Translations under genes and position numbers: made by a program
Notes under the pieces: model-generated
The model's input: the letters and a program-made list of their open reading frames with translations, nothing else
The model's database searches: none
Told to the model about the DNA's origin: nothing
Origin: Deltaproteobacteria bacterium
GTDB taxonomy: Bacteria > Desulfobacterota > Desulfobacteria > Desulfobacterales > SURF-15
Reading direction: 5' to 3'
NCBI GenBank assembly: GCA_024644775.1
Contig: JAHEHB010000083.1
Span: 1-15,610, forward strand
DNA: 15,610 nt
In this document: positions 1,019-14,559 of the stretch, piece after piece
Layout: each line of letters opens with the position of its first letter
Numbering within the stretch: the first letter of the stretch is position 1

Positions 1019-2014
1019 TCAGCGGGCAGCCGTGTTCATTCCATACCTTTGCAGCATGGCGGCTGCTTCGGAACGGATTTCTTCGCTGAGGGATTCCGGT
1101 TCGATAACAACGGCTTGTGATCCCCAATTTAAAATCCAAAATTTTATTTCATCGGTGCCGGCCACTTCTGCGGTAAACAGGATTGAACCGTCCTCCTGGG
1201 GTTCAATGTTCTGGGTCTCGTGCCAAATCTTTTCTGAGATATAGCCGGCGATATCCGCACTAAACCATATTTTAACGGGTACGGGTTTTCCGTGAAATAC
1301 ACCAAAACTTGCTTTCATGAACGCATCTAAATTGATGTTTTCCGGTATTTCAAATGATTCCTCGGTGGTTTCCAATTTCTGGATGCGATCTAAAGCAAAT
1401 ATCCTTACGTCTTTTCGAAGCTGACAATACCCGATCATGTAAAAAGTGCCGTCGAAAAACCAGATTTTATAGGGTGCCACCTTGCGGTGCAATGCTTCTT
1501 TCCGGCTCATGGAATAATAAATCAACTCAACGAACCGTCGTTGTACCACCGACTCATTGACCTCATCGATAATCCGGCGAAATTGCCCATAGGGCTTGTA
1601 GGGCTGGGGACCGACCTCCAGGCCCTCTTCAATGCGAATCAGATATTTAAGGTATTCCGGTGGCAGCGTTGTTTTAATCTTTTGAAAAAGTGTTTCCAAT
1701 GAATCGTAAAAGACGGTGTTTTTTAAAAATTTCATCATGTTACGGCTGAAATAGAGGGCCATAAGTTCTGTGATGTCGAGTGGAATCGGAATTTGCCGTT
1801 TGGCGCTGCTCAGCAGCGACCACCGGTTGTTCTGATTGACTCGTTCGGAATAGAGTGGAAAACCGGCGATCTGGAGCGCTTCCAGGTCCCGATATACGGT
1901 CCGGGAATGACAACCCAGTTCTTCGGCCAGTTCTGCTGCAGATTTACCGCTCTGAGACGAGAGTAATGTTTGAATTATTTTCCACTGCCTACCCAGTTGG
2001 TCTCCACGTGCCAT
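1019..2014 (-). CDS. WYL-domain transcriptional regulator (HTH - WYL - WCX)
   Basis: A 331-aa predicted cytoplasmic DNA-binding regulator. Residues about 5-55 form a DeoR/HTH_11-type winged helix (AAELAEELGCHSRTVYRDL). Residues about 150-215 form the WYL ligand-sensing domain, in which the signature reads FYM (PYKIWFFDGTFYMIGYC) followed by the typical RIFALDRI strand. Residues about 245-325 fit the WCX extension. WYL proteins sense nucleic-acid or nucleotide ligands in studied cases and often control stress, DNA-repair or phage-defence genes. I chose the ATG at 2014 because the helix-turn-helix begins straight after it; a longer frame to 2104 has poor N-terminal content running into repeat copy B. 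It is divergent from the 2366-3570 unit, which makes that unit, or its own gene, a plausible target. No specific regulon can be read from the sequence. Confidence 0.88.
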   Translation of the reverse strand: MARGDQLGRQWKIIQTLLSSQSGKSAAELAEELGCHSRTVYRDLEALQIAGFPLYSERVNQNNRWSLLSSAKRQIPIPLDITELMALYFSRNMMKFLKNTVFYDSLETLFQKIKTTLPPEYLKYLIRIEEGLEVGPQPYKPYGQFRRIIDEVNESVVQRRFVELIYYSMSRKEALHRKVAPYKIWFFDGTFYMIGYCQLRKDVRIFALDRIQKLETTEESFEIPENINLDAFMKASFGVFHGKPVPVKIWFSADIAGYISEKIWHETQNIEPQEDGSILFTAEVAGTDEIKFWILNWGSQAVVIEPESLSEEIRSEAAAMLQRYGMNTAAR

Positions 2015-2257: not shown

Positions 2258-2278
2258 GTGTGACCGGATCTGTCACAC
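2258..2278. promoter_or_regulatory. Perfect 7-bp inverted repeat, candidate operator
   Basis: GTGTGAC (2258-2264), a 7-bp spacer, then GTCACAC (2272-2278). The arms are exact reverse complements, centred about 100 bp upstream of the first small gene and preceded by an A-tract (2231-2249). The shape fits a dimeric repressor site. The divergent WYL regulator is the obvious candidate binder, but this is inference. No convincing -35/-10 pair could be assigned nearby. Confidence 0.5.
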
Positions 2279-2365
2279 GCCTAGTGTATGTATATATCTG
2301 AAAATCGGTATAGGACCCCAACCGGGCGGATGTTACCAATCATTACTGAAAGGAGGTTACGTACA

Positions 2366-2545
2366 ATGATACACGATGCATCCTTCACAAACTGTTACGA
2401 TACCTACGAATACCATGGAAATACAGAGATTGTACTCACCCGTAAACGAGGCGATTCGACCGTTTGGCGAAACTGGATCCTTTTTGATTCTGTGGAAGAG
2501 GCAAGCGAATACTTCAATAATCAATGTTGTGCAGAGGAGGTATGA
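2366..2545 (+). CDS. Small protein of unknown function (59 aa)
   Basis: I do not recognise this protein. The ATG at 2366 is chosen because a near-perfect Shine-Dalgarno (AAAGGAGG, 2349-2356) stands 9 nt upstream; a longer frame from 2288 has none. The protein is acidic and aromatic-rich, with a Tyr-rich start, a central basic TRKRGDSTVWRNW patch, a likely amphipathic helix (DSVEEASEYFNNQ) and a CC pair near the end. No membrane segment or signal peptide is visible. Its stop codon overlaps the next gene's start as ATGA, so the two are probably translationally coupled. It is the first gene of the unit ending with the J-domain protein. Codon pattern and ribosome site make it a real gene; its function is unknown. 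Confidence 0.7.
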   Translation: MIHDASFTNCYDTYEYHGNTEIVLTRKRGDSTVWRNWILFDSVEEASEYFNNQCCAEEV

Positions 2546-2781
2546 TGGATACGTTAAAAGTTGTTGGTGTCGGATACTATGGAAAACCGGAAACGGTTGC
2601 CCGATTTTTTAAAAAGATGGTCAGCGCGTATGACCCGGGAAAAGGTGCTAAACCGAAATCCACATCCATATCCGGTTTTTATTTGGGATTGGATAACCAG
2701 GTACTGAAATTGTCGGTATTCTCCAAGAGAAAAGGGCGACATCAGGTCGTTGATAATTTTTCCTTGCTATTTGAGCCGTAA
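2542..2781 (+). CDS. Small protein of unknown function (79 aa)
   Basis: I do not recognise this protein. The start is ATG 2542 (overlapping the previous stop as ATGA) or ATG 2545. A strong AGGAGG at 2535-2540 lies inside the end of the upstream gene and better fits 2545 by spacing. The protein is basic, about 79 aa, without signal peptide or membrane span. It begins MMDTLKVVGVGYYGKPETVA, carries a Lys-rich loop (DPGKGAKPKS), then alternating hydrophobic residues typical of beta strands and a basic KRKGR patch. A small nucleic-acid or protein-binding role is possible but only inferred from charge. It is coupled to the 59-aa gene and lies 45 bp before the J-domain gene. Confidence 0.7.
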   Translation: MMDTLKVVGVGYYGKPETVARFFKKMVSAYDPGKGAKPKSTSISGFYLGLDNQVLKLSVFSKRKGRHQVVDNFSLLFEP

Positions 2782-2826
2782 ATATGATTTGTTTGACGTG
2801 TATTCTTCGAAACAAAAGGTTGCTCA

Positions 2827-3570
2827 ATGGTTCAAACACCGACTCCATTACCCCTCCGCGACTCGGAGGAAACCAACAAAAACCGGTGCTTGTCCTGTGG
2901 TACTTCAGAAAACATGGGCAAGCGCCGGTATTGTTCCACAGAGTGCCGTCAGCGTCTTCGGTATCAACTAAATGTCCGCGCAGGCTTGCTGAAAGCGCTC
3001 AATACAAGATTTGCAACCTTTTATTTCAATGATTTTTTAATCATTATGGATATTCTGCCTTTTGATACGCTTCAGATCTTCAGCTTCATGTATCCGCGAT
3101 CTCAAAACGGAAGACCTGTGGAAGACTTTAGCAGGATGGCGAATGAATTGGGGAATGCGTGGTGGGAAGAAGAACGCCGAACCCGAAGACGATATTTGGC
3201 TTCTCGTCACCTGCTTGAAAAGGCCAGCAGAAACCATACACGACTGGACACTGTGAAACCGTTTGAAATTAAAAAACCGGCCCTTATTGGAAATTCTATT
3301 ATACATCTGCAATTGAATCGAACGCAACTGGATGACCCTGATTTGCTTCAAATTATCAAGCAGGCTTATCGGCGACAGGCAAAAAAATACCATCCGGATC
3401 AAGGCGGAGATGCGGCTGCCTTTCGGAAAATTCACGAAGCCTATCAACAGCTTCTTACCTGGGCAGAAAGTCCTACCTTTGTGAAGCGCCGGGGGTTTCC
3501 GGACAAATGGTTTTATGACGGCCGGCAAAATCGCTGGATTCAACCCACACCCCGCCACGAAGAAATTTAA
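2827..3570 (+). CDS. Zinc-finger / J-domain (DnaJ-like) protein
   Basis: A 247-aa protein with an unusual arrangement. An N-terminal four-cysteine zinc-binding motif (Cys21-x2-Cys24-x11-Cys36-x3-Cys40) is followed by a middle helical, charged region (about 95-140) and a C-terminal J domain (about 168-213). The J domain has the HPD tripeptide (189-191), a preceding basic helix (QAYRRQAKKY) and a following FRKIHEAYQQLL helix. The HPD motif is what J proteins use to stimulate Hsp70 (DnaK) ATPase. It is not DnaJ itself: canonical DnaJ has the J domain first, then Gly/Phe and a zinc domain with four CxxCxGxG repeats. It is more likely a specialised co-chaperone that brings DnaK to a particular client. 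The ATG at 2827 has AAAGG 8 nt upstream. It is the last gene of the 2366-3570 unit, and a MITE-like repeat starts 12 bp after the stop. Confidence 0.8.
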   Translation: MVQTPTPLPLRDSEETNKNRCLSCGTSENMGKRRYCSTECRQRLRYQLNVRAGLLKALNTRFATFYFNDFLIIMDILPFDTLQIFSFMYPRSQNGRPVEDFSRMANELGNAWWEEERRTRRRYLASRHLLEKASRNHTRLDTVKPFEIKKPALIGNSIIHLQLNRTQLDDPDLLQIIKQAYRRQAKKYHPDQGGDAAAFRKIHEAYQQLLTWAESPTFVKRRGFPDKWFYDGRQNRWIQPTPRHEEI

Positions 3571-3581
3571 CAATCAATTCT

Positions 3582-3742
3582 TGATAAACTCGTAAAAAGT
3601 CCTAAAACCGTCATGCCGGACTTGATCCCCGCTAAGAACGGGATCTTCGACCGGTATCCAGAAGTTGTTGAATTTACTCGATTCCGGCTTTCGCCGGAAT
3701 GACATAAAAACGTGTTTTTTGACTTTTTGCGAAACCATCAAT
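3582..3742. mobile_element. MITE-like non-autonomous element, copy 1 (161 bp)
   Basis: It shares long near-identical stretches with 11413-11550. The ends form imperfect terminal inverted repeats: TGATaaacTCGtAAAAAGTC at the left against the reverse complement of the right end (15 of 20 identical). Inside is a strong hairpin, ATTCCGGC-tttc-GCCGGAAT (3681-3700). Copy 1 has an extra 23 bp net, including its own small hairpin (GATCCC...GGGATC), relative to copy 2. The 10-mer ATCAATTCTT occurs at 3573-3582 and 3737-3746, possibly a target duplication, although ATCAAT also belongs to the shared right end. No transposase is encoded. Confidence 0.7.
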
Positions 3743-3913
3743 TCTTAACTCATTGACTTTAGGTTTCCTAATCTTATCCTTATGGTGATGTTGGTTGCGC
3801 GGTTCAGGGTTCAACCTTCCGGGTCGAAAAACCCCAAGCAACTCGCCGCTGATCACATATCAGAGGTACCCTGTCTAATTTAAGTTAAATAAGGTATGGA
3901 AGGGGGTCGTATC

Positions 3914-5696: not shown

Positions 5697-6989
5697 TTAA
5701 CCCTGATATCCTGACAAACGGGGAATCCAGAGCACGGTGTCGGGAAAATACGTAATGATCGCCAAAGCCAGCAGTTCAAACGCAATAAAAATAAGCATTT
5801 CCTTCATTACTTTGTCGAGCGGCGTTCCGCTGATACCGCTGGCTATAAATGCTGTTGGGCCGAAAGGCGGCGTATCCAGGGCAATCATCAAATTGAAAAC
5901 AGTCACCACACCAAAATGGACCAGATCAATTCCGGCTTCTTTTACCAACGGTAGTACAAGCGGCACAATGATAAGCAAAATGGCGGAAACATCGATAAAG
6001 CAGCCCAGAATCAGGAATAGAACATTTAGAGAGATGAGCACGGTCATCTGGCTTTTCATAAGCCCTAAATTTATAAACGTCATTGTGATGATCTTCGGAA
6101 TTTCTTCTCTTGCAACGATGTAACCGAAAATAAATGCACAGGCGACGATGAAGCTCACAAACCCGCTGCTGACAACCGTCTCGATGAATACCTTGTAAAG
6201 GGCTTTGAGGCCCAGGGTTCGATAAACCAACACCGAAAGAATTAAGACATAAACCCCGATGACACCGGCGGCTTCGGTGGGTGTAAAAATTCCACCGTAA
6301 ATTCCCCCCAGGAGAATGACCGGTGCCATTAAAATAAGAATGGAACGAAAAACGATCCGAATGAATTCCGAAAAAGGCGGCCATTTTTCGGTGGGATAGC
6401 CCCGGATAGTGGAGAGGATAAACACCAGTATCATAAGAACGGCTGCCAGGATGAAACCGGGGATAACACCGCCTAAAAAAAGATACCCCACCGATGCCCC
6501 TGACAGCATGGAGTAGATCACCATGGGAATGCTGGGTGGAATGATCGGCCCGATGGTAGCCGAAGCGCACGTAACGGCACAGGCAAACGGGCCGTCATAA
6601 CCGGCATCTTTCATGGCTTTGATTTCAACGGTCCCCAAGCCGGCTACATCGGCGATTTCAGACCCTGACATGCCCGCAAAGATGATACTCGATACGATGT
6701 TGACATGACCTAAACCGCCCCGCAGGGGTCCCACGAGTATTTTGGCAAAATCAAAAAGACGATCCGTTAATTTTCCGGCGTTCATGATTTTGGCAGCAAA
6801 AATGAATAACGGCACAGCCAGTAAAATAAACTGATTTTCATAAGCAATTACCATCGTGTCCATGACGGTTGATAGGTCAATACCGGCAATCATGAGATAG
6901 AGAACAGAACTGACAAACATGCCGAATGCCACCGGATATCCGAGAGCGAAAATCAACAGGAATACCGTCAGCCACACCGCTATCGCCAC
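5697..6989 (-). CDS. dctM: TRAP transporter large permease subunit (DctM family)
   Basis: A 430-aa inner-membrane protein with about a dozen hydrophobic segments. It shows the family's hallmark stretches: an N-terminal GYPVAFGMF, SGSEIADVAGLGTVEIKAM around residue 110, and CASATIGPIIPPSIPMVIY. It forms the transport core of a tripartite ATP-independent periplasmic transporter, normally driven by a sodium gradient, and takes substrate from the binding protein DctP. The GTG start at 6989 has a GAGGTG ribosome site 6 nt upstream and overlaps the end of dctQ by 10 nt, typical of coupled Q and M subunits. The stop is 27 bp before the aldolase ATG. Full family length, no defects seen. Confidence 0.93.
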   Translation of the reverse strand: MAIAVWLTVFLLIFALGYPVAFGMFVSSVLYLMIAGIDLSTVMDTMVIAYENQFILLAVPLFIFAAKIMNAGKLTDRLFDFAKILVGPLRGGLGHVNIVSSIIFAGMSGSEIADVAGLGTVEIKAMKDAGYDGPFACAVTCASATIGPIIPPSIPMVIYSMLSGASVGYLFLGGVIPGFILAAVLMILVFILSTIRGYPTEKWPPFSEFIRIVFRSILILMAPVILLGGIYGGIFTPTEAAGVIGVYVLILSVLVYRTLGLKALYKVFIETVVSSGFVSFIVACAFIFGYIVAREEIPKIITMTFINLGLMKSQMTVLISLNVLFLILGCFIDVSAILLIIVPLVLPLVKEAGIDLVHFGVVTVFNLMIALDTPPFGPTAFIASGISGTPLDKVMKEMLIFIAFELLALAIITYFPDTVLWIPRLSGYQG

Positions 6990-11353: not shown

Positions 11354-11698
11354 GCTAGCAGTTCGGCTTTTATATGAGTGGAGTGAGGGTCACAATTATA
11401 ATGATATAAATAGTGATAAACTCGTAAAAAGTCCTAAAACCGTCATGCCGGACTTGATTCGGTATCCAGAAGTCATTGAATTTACTGGATTCCGGCTTTC
11501 GCCGGAATGACATAAAAATGTCTTTTTCGACTTTTTGCGAAACCATCAATAATGGATTCAAAAGCCTCGAACATGGGGTGATTTTGTCATAAAATAAAAT
11601 TTCGATTTTTACACTTTAGATAAATATCCCACGTTTCTTGTCAGGTTCCTTTTGTATCTTATTGGCTTGTTGCACGTTTACATGAGGCCATTTTGCCT
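11354..11698. other. Intergenic region between convergent genes
   Basis: No gene is seen. It holds MITE copy 2 (11413-11550). The rest (11551-11698) is A/T-rich and featureless to the eye. Because the radical SAM gene and the aldo/keto reductase gene converge here, the strong hairpin of the MITE (11489-11508) may serve as a transcription end point. Confidence 0.55.
11413..11550. mobile_element. MITE-like non-autonomous element, copy 2 (138 bp)
   Basis: Same orientation and same ends as 3582-3742. It has the TGATaaacTCGtAAAAAGTC left end, the right end GACTTTTTGCGAAACCATCA, and the hairpin ATTCCGGC-tttc-GCCGGAAT (11489-11508). It lacks the internal 23 bp of copy 1. No clear flanking target duplication is seen. 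Both copies sit just downstream of a plus-strand gene. Confidence 0.7.
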
Positions 11699-13783: not shown

Positions 13784-13912
13784 TGTAACGCAGAGTTAAA
13801 GTGCGGGCAGAGAAAACCGAGGCGATAACAACAAGGCAATGTAACAGGTTGAAATATTGATAGGTGATAGCCGCCGACTTCTGCCCGTCAATCTTCAACG
13901 TTTTGTTCGGCA
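13784..13912. repeat. Imperfect long inverted repeat at the end of the TA module
   Basis: The stretch 13786-13814 (TAACGCAGAG..., GCGGGCAGA) pairs imperfectly with 13876-13903 (TCTGCCCGTC, ...CAACGTTT). The best core is GGGCAGA (13805-13811) against TCTGCCC (13880-13886), with further A/T and AACG/CGTT pairs. It starts inside the last codons of the antitoxin gene and ends about 105 bp beyond its stop. It may be a folded recombination site or a 3' mRNA structure. Confidence 0.35.
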
Positions 13913-14127
13913 AACCGTTCCCTAGATTCTCTTACCGCAGAAAGAATGTCTTTTGTAGTTGCTTTGGTTTGGATTCCTGGAACATCAAATGGTGATTTTT
14001 TACTTTTCCTAAAGATTATTGAAAAAGTTTCACCACCTCTCCTTTTGATAACGACCTCTTCATTTCTCGCGGTATTAAGAACGTCAGAAAGACGTTGTCT
14101 TGCCTCAGAATATGTATACACTTTCAT
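13888..14127 (-). CDS. Phd/YefM-family antitoxin
   Basis: A 79-aa antitoxin with the Phd/YefM DNA-binding N-terminus: MKVYTYSEARQRLSDVLNTA, then EEVVIKRRGGETFSIIFRK. The charged C-terminal tail (about 50-79, TKATTKDILSAVRESRERFAEQ) would wrap the toxin. It neutralises the PIN toxin encoded just upstream and normally represses the operon together with it. The ATG at 14127 has GGAG (14139-14136) inside the last codons of the toxin gene; the gap between toxin stop and antitoxin start is 6 bp. The antitoxin is second, the reverse of the usual order for PIN modules. Confidence 0.85.
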   Translation of the reverse strand: MKVYTYSEARQRLSDVLNTARNEEVVIKRRGGETFSIIFRKSKKSPFDVPGIQTKATTKDILSAVRESRERFAEQNVED

Positions 14128-14133
14128 GATATC

Positions 14134-14523
14134 TTACTCCAAAATTGTAATCCCCATCTCCCGCGCTACCTTTTGCATTCCAAGGTCAAGTGTAAGCAGC
14201 GGGCTTCTGAGGTTTTCAGCGCATTCTAAGAAATACGCATCGTAGGCATATAGATTATATTTAATCGCGATGCTCAATGCATATTTTATATTCGTATGTC
14301 TTAAATCAACCGGTATCTGTTGAACAATATCCCAGGCTGATTCGACTTCTTCTTTTTTCAATGTCTTTTTTTTCATCATCGCCGTTAATGCATTCCCTAT
14401 TTCAAACGGCAAAACATCAGGGGCAATTAAATCATGGCCTTCTGTAAGTCCAATGATTTTGACCTTTTCAGGCTCATTTAAGGCAACAGCTATGAACGTA
14501 TTCGTATCAGTGATTATTTTCAT
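14134..14523 (-). CDS. PIN-domain toxin (VapC-type ribonuclease)
   Basis: A 129-aa PIN-domain protein. The four acidic active-site residues can be placed: Asp6 (IITDTN), Glu41 (PFEIGNAL), Asp95 (YAYDAYFLE) and Asp113 (TLDLGM). They bind Mg/Mn for single-strand RNA cleavage, classically of tRNA or rRNA in VapC toxins. It is full length and apparently intact. The ATG at 14523 is chosen because MKIITDTN is the normal PIN beginning; an upstream TTG at 14559 lies inside the -35 box. There is no Shine-Dalgarno: a promoter puts the transcript start at or within 1 nt of the ATG, suggesting a leaderless message. The partner antitoxin follows 6 bp downstream. Confidence 0.87.
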   Translation of the reverse strand: MKIITDTNTFIAVALNEPEKVKIIGLTEGHDLIAPDVLPFEIGNALTAMMKKKTLKKEEVESAWDIVQQIPVDLRHTNIKYALSIAIKYNLYAYDAYFLECAENLRSPLLTLDLGMQKVAREMGITILE

Positions 14524-14525
14524 AG

Positions 14526-14559
14526 GTACAATTGTACGTATTTCGTTCCGATTTGTCAA
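14526..14559 (-). promoter_or_regulatory. TA promoter with palindromic operator over the -10 box
   Basis: On the minus strand TTGACA (14559-14554, perfect) is followed by 17 bp and TACAAT (14536-14531, 5 of 6). The -10 lies inside a perfect 12-bp palindrome, GTACAATTGTAC (14526-14537), ideal for autorepression by the antitoxin or the complex. The expected start is 14524 or 14523, i.e. at the toxin ATG. Confidence 0.7.

Follow-up and report, generated by a model that had tools for sequence, protein, structure and literature searches.

The two small genes and the divergent WYL regulator of this stretch of DNA appear to belong to a circuit by which sulfate-reducing bacteria and related organisms respond to DNA damage. 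The window (the whole stretch analysed, 15,610 nucleotides) carries, from left to right, the WYL regulator gene, an intergenic region of ~350 nt, and the genes for A59, B79 and a J-domain protein, J (Table 1). By its J protein, the window falls among the Desulfobacterota. We consider it probable, with good though not full confidence, that the locus is a WYL-regulated, DNA-damage-inducible operon in which a DriD-type activator acts on a 19-bp operator and A59 is the commonest recognised target. Sequence comparison shows the conserved unit, the operator, the promoter geometry, the regulon membership, the protein-DNA covariation and the selection described below.

Table 1. Features of the locus (positions in the window)
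Feature	Positions	Strand	Basis
WYL regulator, wHTH-WYL-WCX, DriD-like	1019..2014	-	Pfam HTH_11, WYL, WCX; alignment to DriD
19-bp putative operator TGTGACCGGATCTGTCACA	2259..2277	+	holds most of the 7+7 inverted repeat
presumed -10 element TATGTA, TA at +28 from operator start	2287..2292	+	spacing kept in 63/64 A59 sites
A59, 59-aa protein of a new family, predicted beta-beta-beta-alpha	2366..2545	+
B79, 79-aa shortened C-terminal ARPP-1-like module	2542..2781	+
J-domain protein, outside the conserved unit; may be transcribed by read-through in the window's lineage	2827..3570	+

The listed reading frame of the regulator reaches a TTG at 2104; the ATG at 2014, giving 331 aa, is the likely start. 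The regulator gene is flanked by a 44-nt inverted repeat (788-831 and 2085-2128, 84% complementary). Elsewhere in the window are a two-part direct repeat (3582-3742 and 11414-11550; 45 nt identical and 91 nt 93% identical, ~7.8 kb apart) and a Phd/YefM antitoxin and PIN-domain toxin pair (13888-14559, minus strand).

Could the two small proteins and J work as one unit of three genes, with J recruiting DnaK to a client of the small proteins? The sequence-only reading had proposed this, and the observations on which it was built hold: the 7+7 inverted repeat is perfect (GTGTGAC at 2258-2264, GTCACAC at 2272-2278), A59 has a ribosome site (AGGAGG at 2351-2356), B79 is joined to A59 through an ATGA overlap, and J has both an N-terminal Cys4 motif and a C-terminal J domain with HPD. 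J is indeed not a class A DnaJ, which would have an N-terminal J domain and four CxxCxGxG repeats instead of a C-terminal J domain and a single N-terminal Cys4 motif. It is a J-domain protein with HPD (Pfam DnaJ at residues 175-209, E=1e-8), and in 41 aligned sequences the residues H189, P190, D191, C21, C24 and C36 never vary, whereas C40 is almost always conserved. The close spacing (B79 ends at 2781, J starts at 2827), the lack of a convincing terminator between B79 and J, a likely B79-J linkage in the nearest relatives, and the co-occurrence of A59 and J in 68 of the 93 A59 genomes, which shared ancestry may explain, all favour such a unit. On the other hand, J lies beside A59 at none of 106 A59 loci, and the best 80 of 412 J loci contain no A59, B79, WYL regulator or the 82-aa ORF found at 3896 in the window (tblastn E<=0.01). 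Nor did the J loci and A59 loci yield evidence that J brings DnaK to such a client. Consequently, we give the three-gene unit hardly any credence, and for lineages other than the window's own it is largely refuted. The first reading is thus corrected: J, which is conserved in Desulfobacterota and occurs in 129 of 389 genomes, is a separate passenger, and the conserved unit is, as judged from gene neighbourhoods, the WYL gene with divergent A59, often followed by a B-family gene. J seems to follow B79 in the window's own lineage only. At L001, the last codons of B79 survive as a remnant in front of J (5924-5956), although A59 and all other parts of B79 have been lost, and the B79 homologue P0006 and the J homologue P0022 are both assigned a longest contig of 1711 bp, presumably one and the same.

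The small genes themselves are real. An A59 profile search gave 111 matches in 93 of 389 genomes. We examined 107 of these, the other four being weak or partial; the resulting set of 106 loci omits L082, which coincides with L161, and L154, which lacks an A59 frame, and four loci with no start called (L150, L175, L186 and L188) are excluded from the start, SD and operator counts. An SD-like word precedes all 103 called A59 starts. The variability of A59 by codon position (0.18/0.15/0.47), together with a median dN/dS of 0.24 (quartiles 0.17 and 0.32; 682 pairs), indicates purifying selection on the protein. A59 matched no known family in the searches made, and a WGR domain is at most a tentative assignment for it. 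A protein database search found nine relatives, two of which (P0008 and P0009) have longest-contig sizes, 2842 and 4075, that match those of the B79 relatives P0002 and P0003, which suggests that the two families are linked there as well. By these comparisons, A59 is a new small-protein family; it is also the commonest recognised target of the operator.

The neighbourhood of A59 takes three forms. A WYL gene is present at 26 of the 106 loci, divergent and upstream at 25 and downstream at one (L179); an HTH-S24 LexA/CI-like repressor lies upstream on the same strand at 31; and 49 have neither, including five with less than 1000 nt of upstream sequence. A B-family gene follows A59 at 15 of the 26 WYL loci, at one of the 49 loci with neither regulator and at none of the 31 S24 loci. 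At seven loci (L084, L089, L090, L092, L093, L098 and L110), the WYL-A59-B unit is followed by a convergent gene whose product, of ~160 aa, contains a CxxCHH-like stretch and could be a small cytochrome c.

The 7+7 repeat overlaps the 19-mer of Table 1, which is the sole match in the window at <=3 mismatches; only one of 200 shuffles gave any match. When an operator was called at >=14 of 19 matching positions, it was present in the DNA preceding A59 in all 24 WYL-type regions, the window among them, in 40 of 48 other regions and in none of the 31 S24-type regions, where the best match reached 13. Three of the eight other regions without an operator reach a contig end. All 64 A59 operators have one orientation, and a TA starts 28 nt after the operator's first base at 63 of the 64, as well as at 79 of 88 distinct sites from a genome scan. 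Because the TA lies at this constant +28, we place the operator over the -35 position, and the 19 bp would take the place of a -35 element. The conserved -10 form is mostly TGnTAnnnT; the window has the TA, but its TG and last T are off the consensus places. Of the sequence-only reading, the real small genes and the control by WYL hold, and a stress unit is likely.

Is the WYL protein the reader of the operator? The pattern TGTGACCGKATCTGTCAMA occurs at 138 sites in 60 of the 389 genomes, with one to eight per genome, and the reversed pattern does not occur; a phylum-wide sample had the operator in 2 of 198 genomes. Nine of the 138 sites, all at places other than A59, were left out of further work (three in G338, two in G051 and one each in G306, G100, G309 and G146), and the 88 scanned sites and the 92 regulon occurrences given below include some A59 sites and thus overlap with the 64. 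A WYL relative (E<=4e-70) is present in 90 of the 389 genomes and in 50 of the 60 operator genomes (Fisher p 3e-28), and A59 in 46 of the 60 (p 1e-21), both p values ignoring kinship. Furthermore, two operator forms exist, and the arms covary with the WYL recognition helix. The TTTGTC-armed form pairs with a Trp before RTVYRDL in six of six cases, that is, at five of five divergent loci (L089, L090, L092, L093 and L098) and also where the WYL gene lies elsewhere (L289, for the A59 locus L096). For the other operators, Trp is found in none of 36 cases, made up of 18 loci with a divergent WYL gene and 18 further WYL genes that do not face A59. Among these 36, L146, one of five A59 operators in the genome of L297, has a degenerate left arm, and the WYL gene of L293 is that which follows A59 in L179. 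L151 fits less well: it combines both arm types (TGTGAC and GACAAA) but has no Trp. The count, which is not corrected for kinship, leaves out L182 (no helix read) and L296 (a second WYL paralogue of a genome).

An alternative is that another regulator reads the operator and that the WYL gene is merely one of its targets. Operators stand before WYL genes at six clustered sites, and a WYL match at E<=4e-70 is missing from 10 of the 60 operator genomes, in eight of them even at 1e-30; at some operator loci (L197 and L198), WYL fragments are present. Such a regulator would not account for the covariation between operator arms and recognition helix, including the one case in which the WYL gene lies elsewhere, or for the apparent resemblance of the operator to a DriD site, and we judge this alternative quite improbable. 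The WYL protein is therefore the likely reader, as far as covariation can tell.

Beyond A59, 68 of 92 operator occurrences in the fetched loci have an ORF of >=70 aa starting <=350 nt downstream, a few of the 68 probably being spurious. By cluster, these ORFs comprise 17 transposase-like, six WYL, four Cas3-like and three ARPP-1-like members; 26 are single, and six pairs make up the rest, with RecA (L239 and L274) as well as response regulators among them. Pfam scans of one representative per kind, except for two each of IS1595 and RecA, identified IS1595 transposase (in both transposase-like genes scanned), Cas3_HD, ARPP-1, ADP-ribosylglycohydrolase, Response_reg, Cas1, HIRAN, HD, RecA (both) and WYL. 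CRISPR-Cas genes lie 3' of the operator at L211, L235, L238 and L241 (Cas3-like) and at L276 (Cas1), which suggests, from gene order, that CRISPR expression may be induced by damage. The transposase-like genes (L199, L215, L220, L227, L230, L233, L234, L242, L243, L246, L247, L255, L256, L258, L259, L266 and L271) have the WYL operator as promoter, and transposition may therefore be tied to the host damage response. Two small operator-driven proteins of ~92-109 aa (L232 and L240) may be WGR-like; that of L232 had no Pfam match at E<=10. As to the idea of a defence system in the first reading, a PADLOC scan of the four locus proteins gave no match for A59, B79 or J, and the WYL regulator matched WYL-type models and a Cas3c model over the same HTH-WYL stretch, but cas3, cas1 and ADP-ribose conflict genes carry the operator elsewhere. 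LexA exceeded the cut-off in 42 of the 60 operator genomes and in 27 of 60 other genomes; therefore, the WYL regulon would come on top of SOS and not in its place. Neither this operator nor this regulon turned up in the literature searched, and the DNA-damage regulon is probably new for this Desulfobacterota class.

The B family connects the locus to ARPP-1 (PF20208). In nine first-found loci, A59 is followed by longer B79 relatives (ORFs of 122-152 aa), and a 126-aa relative aligns with positions 202-297 of the 297 in ARPP-1 (E 1.6e-4; 21.5 bits vs a cut-off of 27). A profile of the long B proteins retrieved two ARPP-1 proteins (E 2e-21 and 3e-10) and the window's B79 (E 3e-16) from a small database, and none of 1000 shuffled decoys was listed. 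A full-length ARPP-1 protein lies downstream of the operator in L200 (E 6e-104). The window's B79 lacks a middle stretch of ~40 residues in the long-B alignment and had no match in a Pfam scan, so it does not show PF20208 over the whole domain. On these alignments, B79 is a shortened C-terminal ARPP-1 module.

This ancestry invites a different reading, in which the WYL protein represses the operon and responds to ADP-ribose or RNA ends, and A59 and the ARPP-like B79 are conflict-system proteins responding to a signal other than DNA damage. It is modelled on the proposal for ARG-associated WYL regulators, which are called negative in the available part of PMC9503650, and the derivation of the B family from ARPP-1 and the ARPP-1, ARG and HIRAN genes behind the operator speak for it. 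However, recA also lies behind the operator, and an operator over the -35 with a conserved -10 spacing resembles the site of an activator. We regard the repressor reading as unlikely, although it deserves more weight than the other alternatives, and prefer a damage-responsive activator.

Such an activator could work as follows. The DriD-type wHTH-WYL-WCX protein would bind the 19-bp operator and sense damage through ssDNA bound at its WYL domain, by analogy with DriD; it would then draw RNA polymerase to the -10 for transcription of A59 and B79, with J possibly co-transcribed by read-through in the window's lineage. The same operator would set a regulon in this Desulfobacterota class comprising recA, cas3/cas1, ARPP-1/ARG/HIRAN and hitch-hiking IS1595 transposons, and A59 would act as a small effector or adaptor of the damage response, probably a cytosolic one. 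We infer ssDNA or damage as the signal, activation instead of repression, and this role of A59.

The S24 loci suggest a wider view. All 31 S24 proteins before A59 have the Ser and Lys motifs, 28 have the strict Ala-Gly pattern and the other three a near form of it. A scan of the first 70 residues found a phage-CI-type HTH in one, and the peptidase half directly upstream of A59 in G306 and G100 gave LexA-model matches. LexA/CI-like repressors that carry self-cleavage motifs thus precede A59 in other genomes, and a single effector family seems to answer to two types of damage sensor. A59 might be a dedicated damage-checkpoint effector of this Desulfobacterota class, comparable to the DidA/SidA pair but formed by one family, which evolution has put under a DriD-like WYL activator in some genomes and under a self-cleaving LexA/CI-like repressor in others, two sensors of damaged DNA that are unrelated to each other. 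Through the WYL regulon, CRISPR-Cas, ADP-ribose conflict genes and transposons would also be linked to DNA damage, and mobile elements would carry the damage promoter of their host. As a whole, this view is tentative and somewhat less likely than not.

If the damage-regulon reading is true, DriD-type damage regulons extend to a further phylum; the operator is defined sharply enough to be sought in any genome, and the residue that sets specificity can be read from the regulator sequence. The reading would also predict, in testable form, which genes of sulfate-reducing and syntrophic bacteria are induced by damage, name the new small-protein family A59 as the commonest recognised target, and tie CRISPR-Cas and transposons to the same switch.

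Among known systems, mycobacterial PafBC aligns with the WYL protein at E 1.2e-14 (6sj9), mainly over its C-terminal part. In the PafBC promoter (the RecA-NDp consensus), a TGTC-type element and a TANNNT -10 stand at a fixed spacing. Like PafBC, as described in the available part of PMC6789036, the window's protein is a WYL/WCX regulator, a putative damage activator, with an element of this type at a set distance from the -10; unlike PafBC, which is built from two distinct HTH-WYL subunits and whose site is not palindromic, the locus has one HTH-WYL-WCX protein, in place of two separate or fused subunits, and a near-palindromic site.

The likeness to ARPP-1/ARG conflict systems lies in the B proteins, which align with the last third of ARPP-1, and in the ARPP-1, HIRAN and ARG genes downstream of the operator; the part of PMC9503650 available describes ARPP with WYL or HIRAN neighbours. 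B79 differs from ARPP-1 in that it holds the last part only, with a further internal deletion. The loci with LexA/CI-type S24 repressors share A59 with the window, which has no S24 repressor; those loci in turn have no WYL operator.

The closest counterpart is DriD of Caulobacter crescentus. Residues 33-344 of the WYL protein align with residues 22-334 of DriD (8tp8; E 1.5e-13), with wHTH, WYL and WCX in a single chain alignable over its length. In the promoter of CCNA_03891, which faces driD, the best site for a matrix built from the 64 A59 operators is TACGACCGTTTCTGTCGCA, equalled in none of 2000 shuffles and followed by 9 nt and CAATCT. The didA promoter scored moderately (42 of 2000 shuffles as good), again with 9 nt and then CAnnnT after the best site, and the bapE promoter was not significant (306 of 2000). 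According to the available part of PMC12340889, DriD is a homodimer activated by ssDNA that activates the divergent two-gene operon CCNA_03891/CCNA_01149 and not its own gene; its sites lie across the -35, with a single spacing to the -10; and its further targets are didA, bapE, dnaG and recJ, with recA named from earlier work. The single-chain architecture, the divergent two-gene operon, the apparent operator position over the -35 at one -10 distance, the apparently similar operator at CCNA_03891 and the recA target are thus shared (PMC12340889, PMC4211646, each as available in part). The window differs in its phylum and in the inferred ssDNA sensing, which is assigned by analogy. CCNA_01149 is a TonB-dependent transporter, and the available parts of these sources report no A59 or B79 in Caulobacter. 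DidA is a membrane protein, whereas A59 has no membrane helix, and the Desulfobacterota regulon, unlike that of DriD, includes cas, ARPP/ARG/HIRAN and IS1595 genes.
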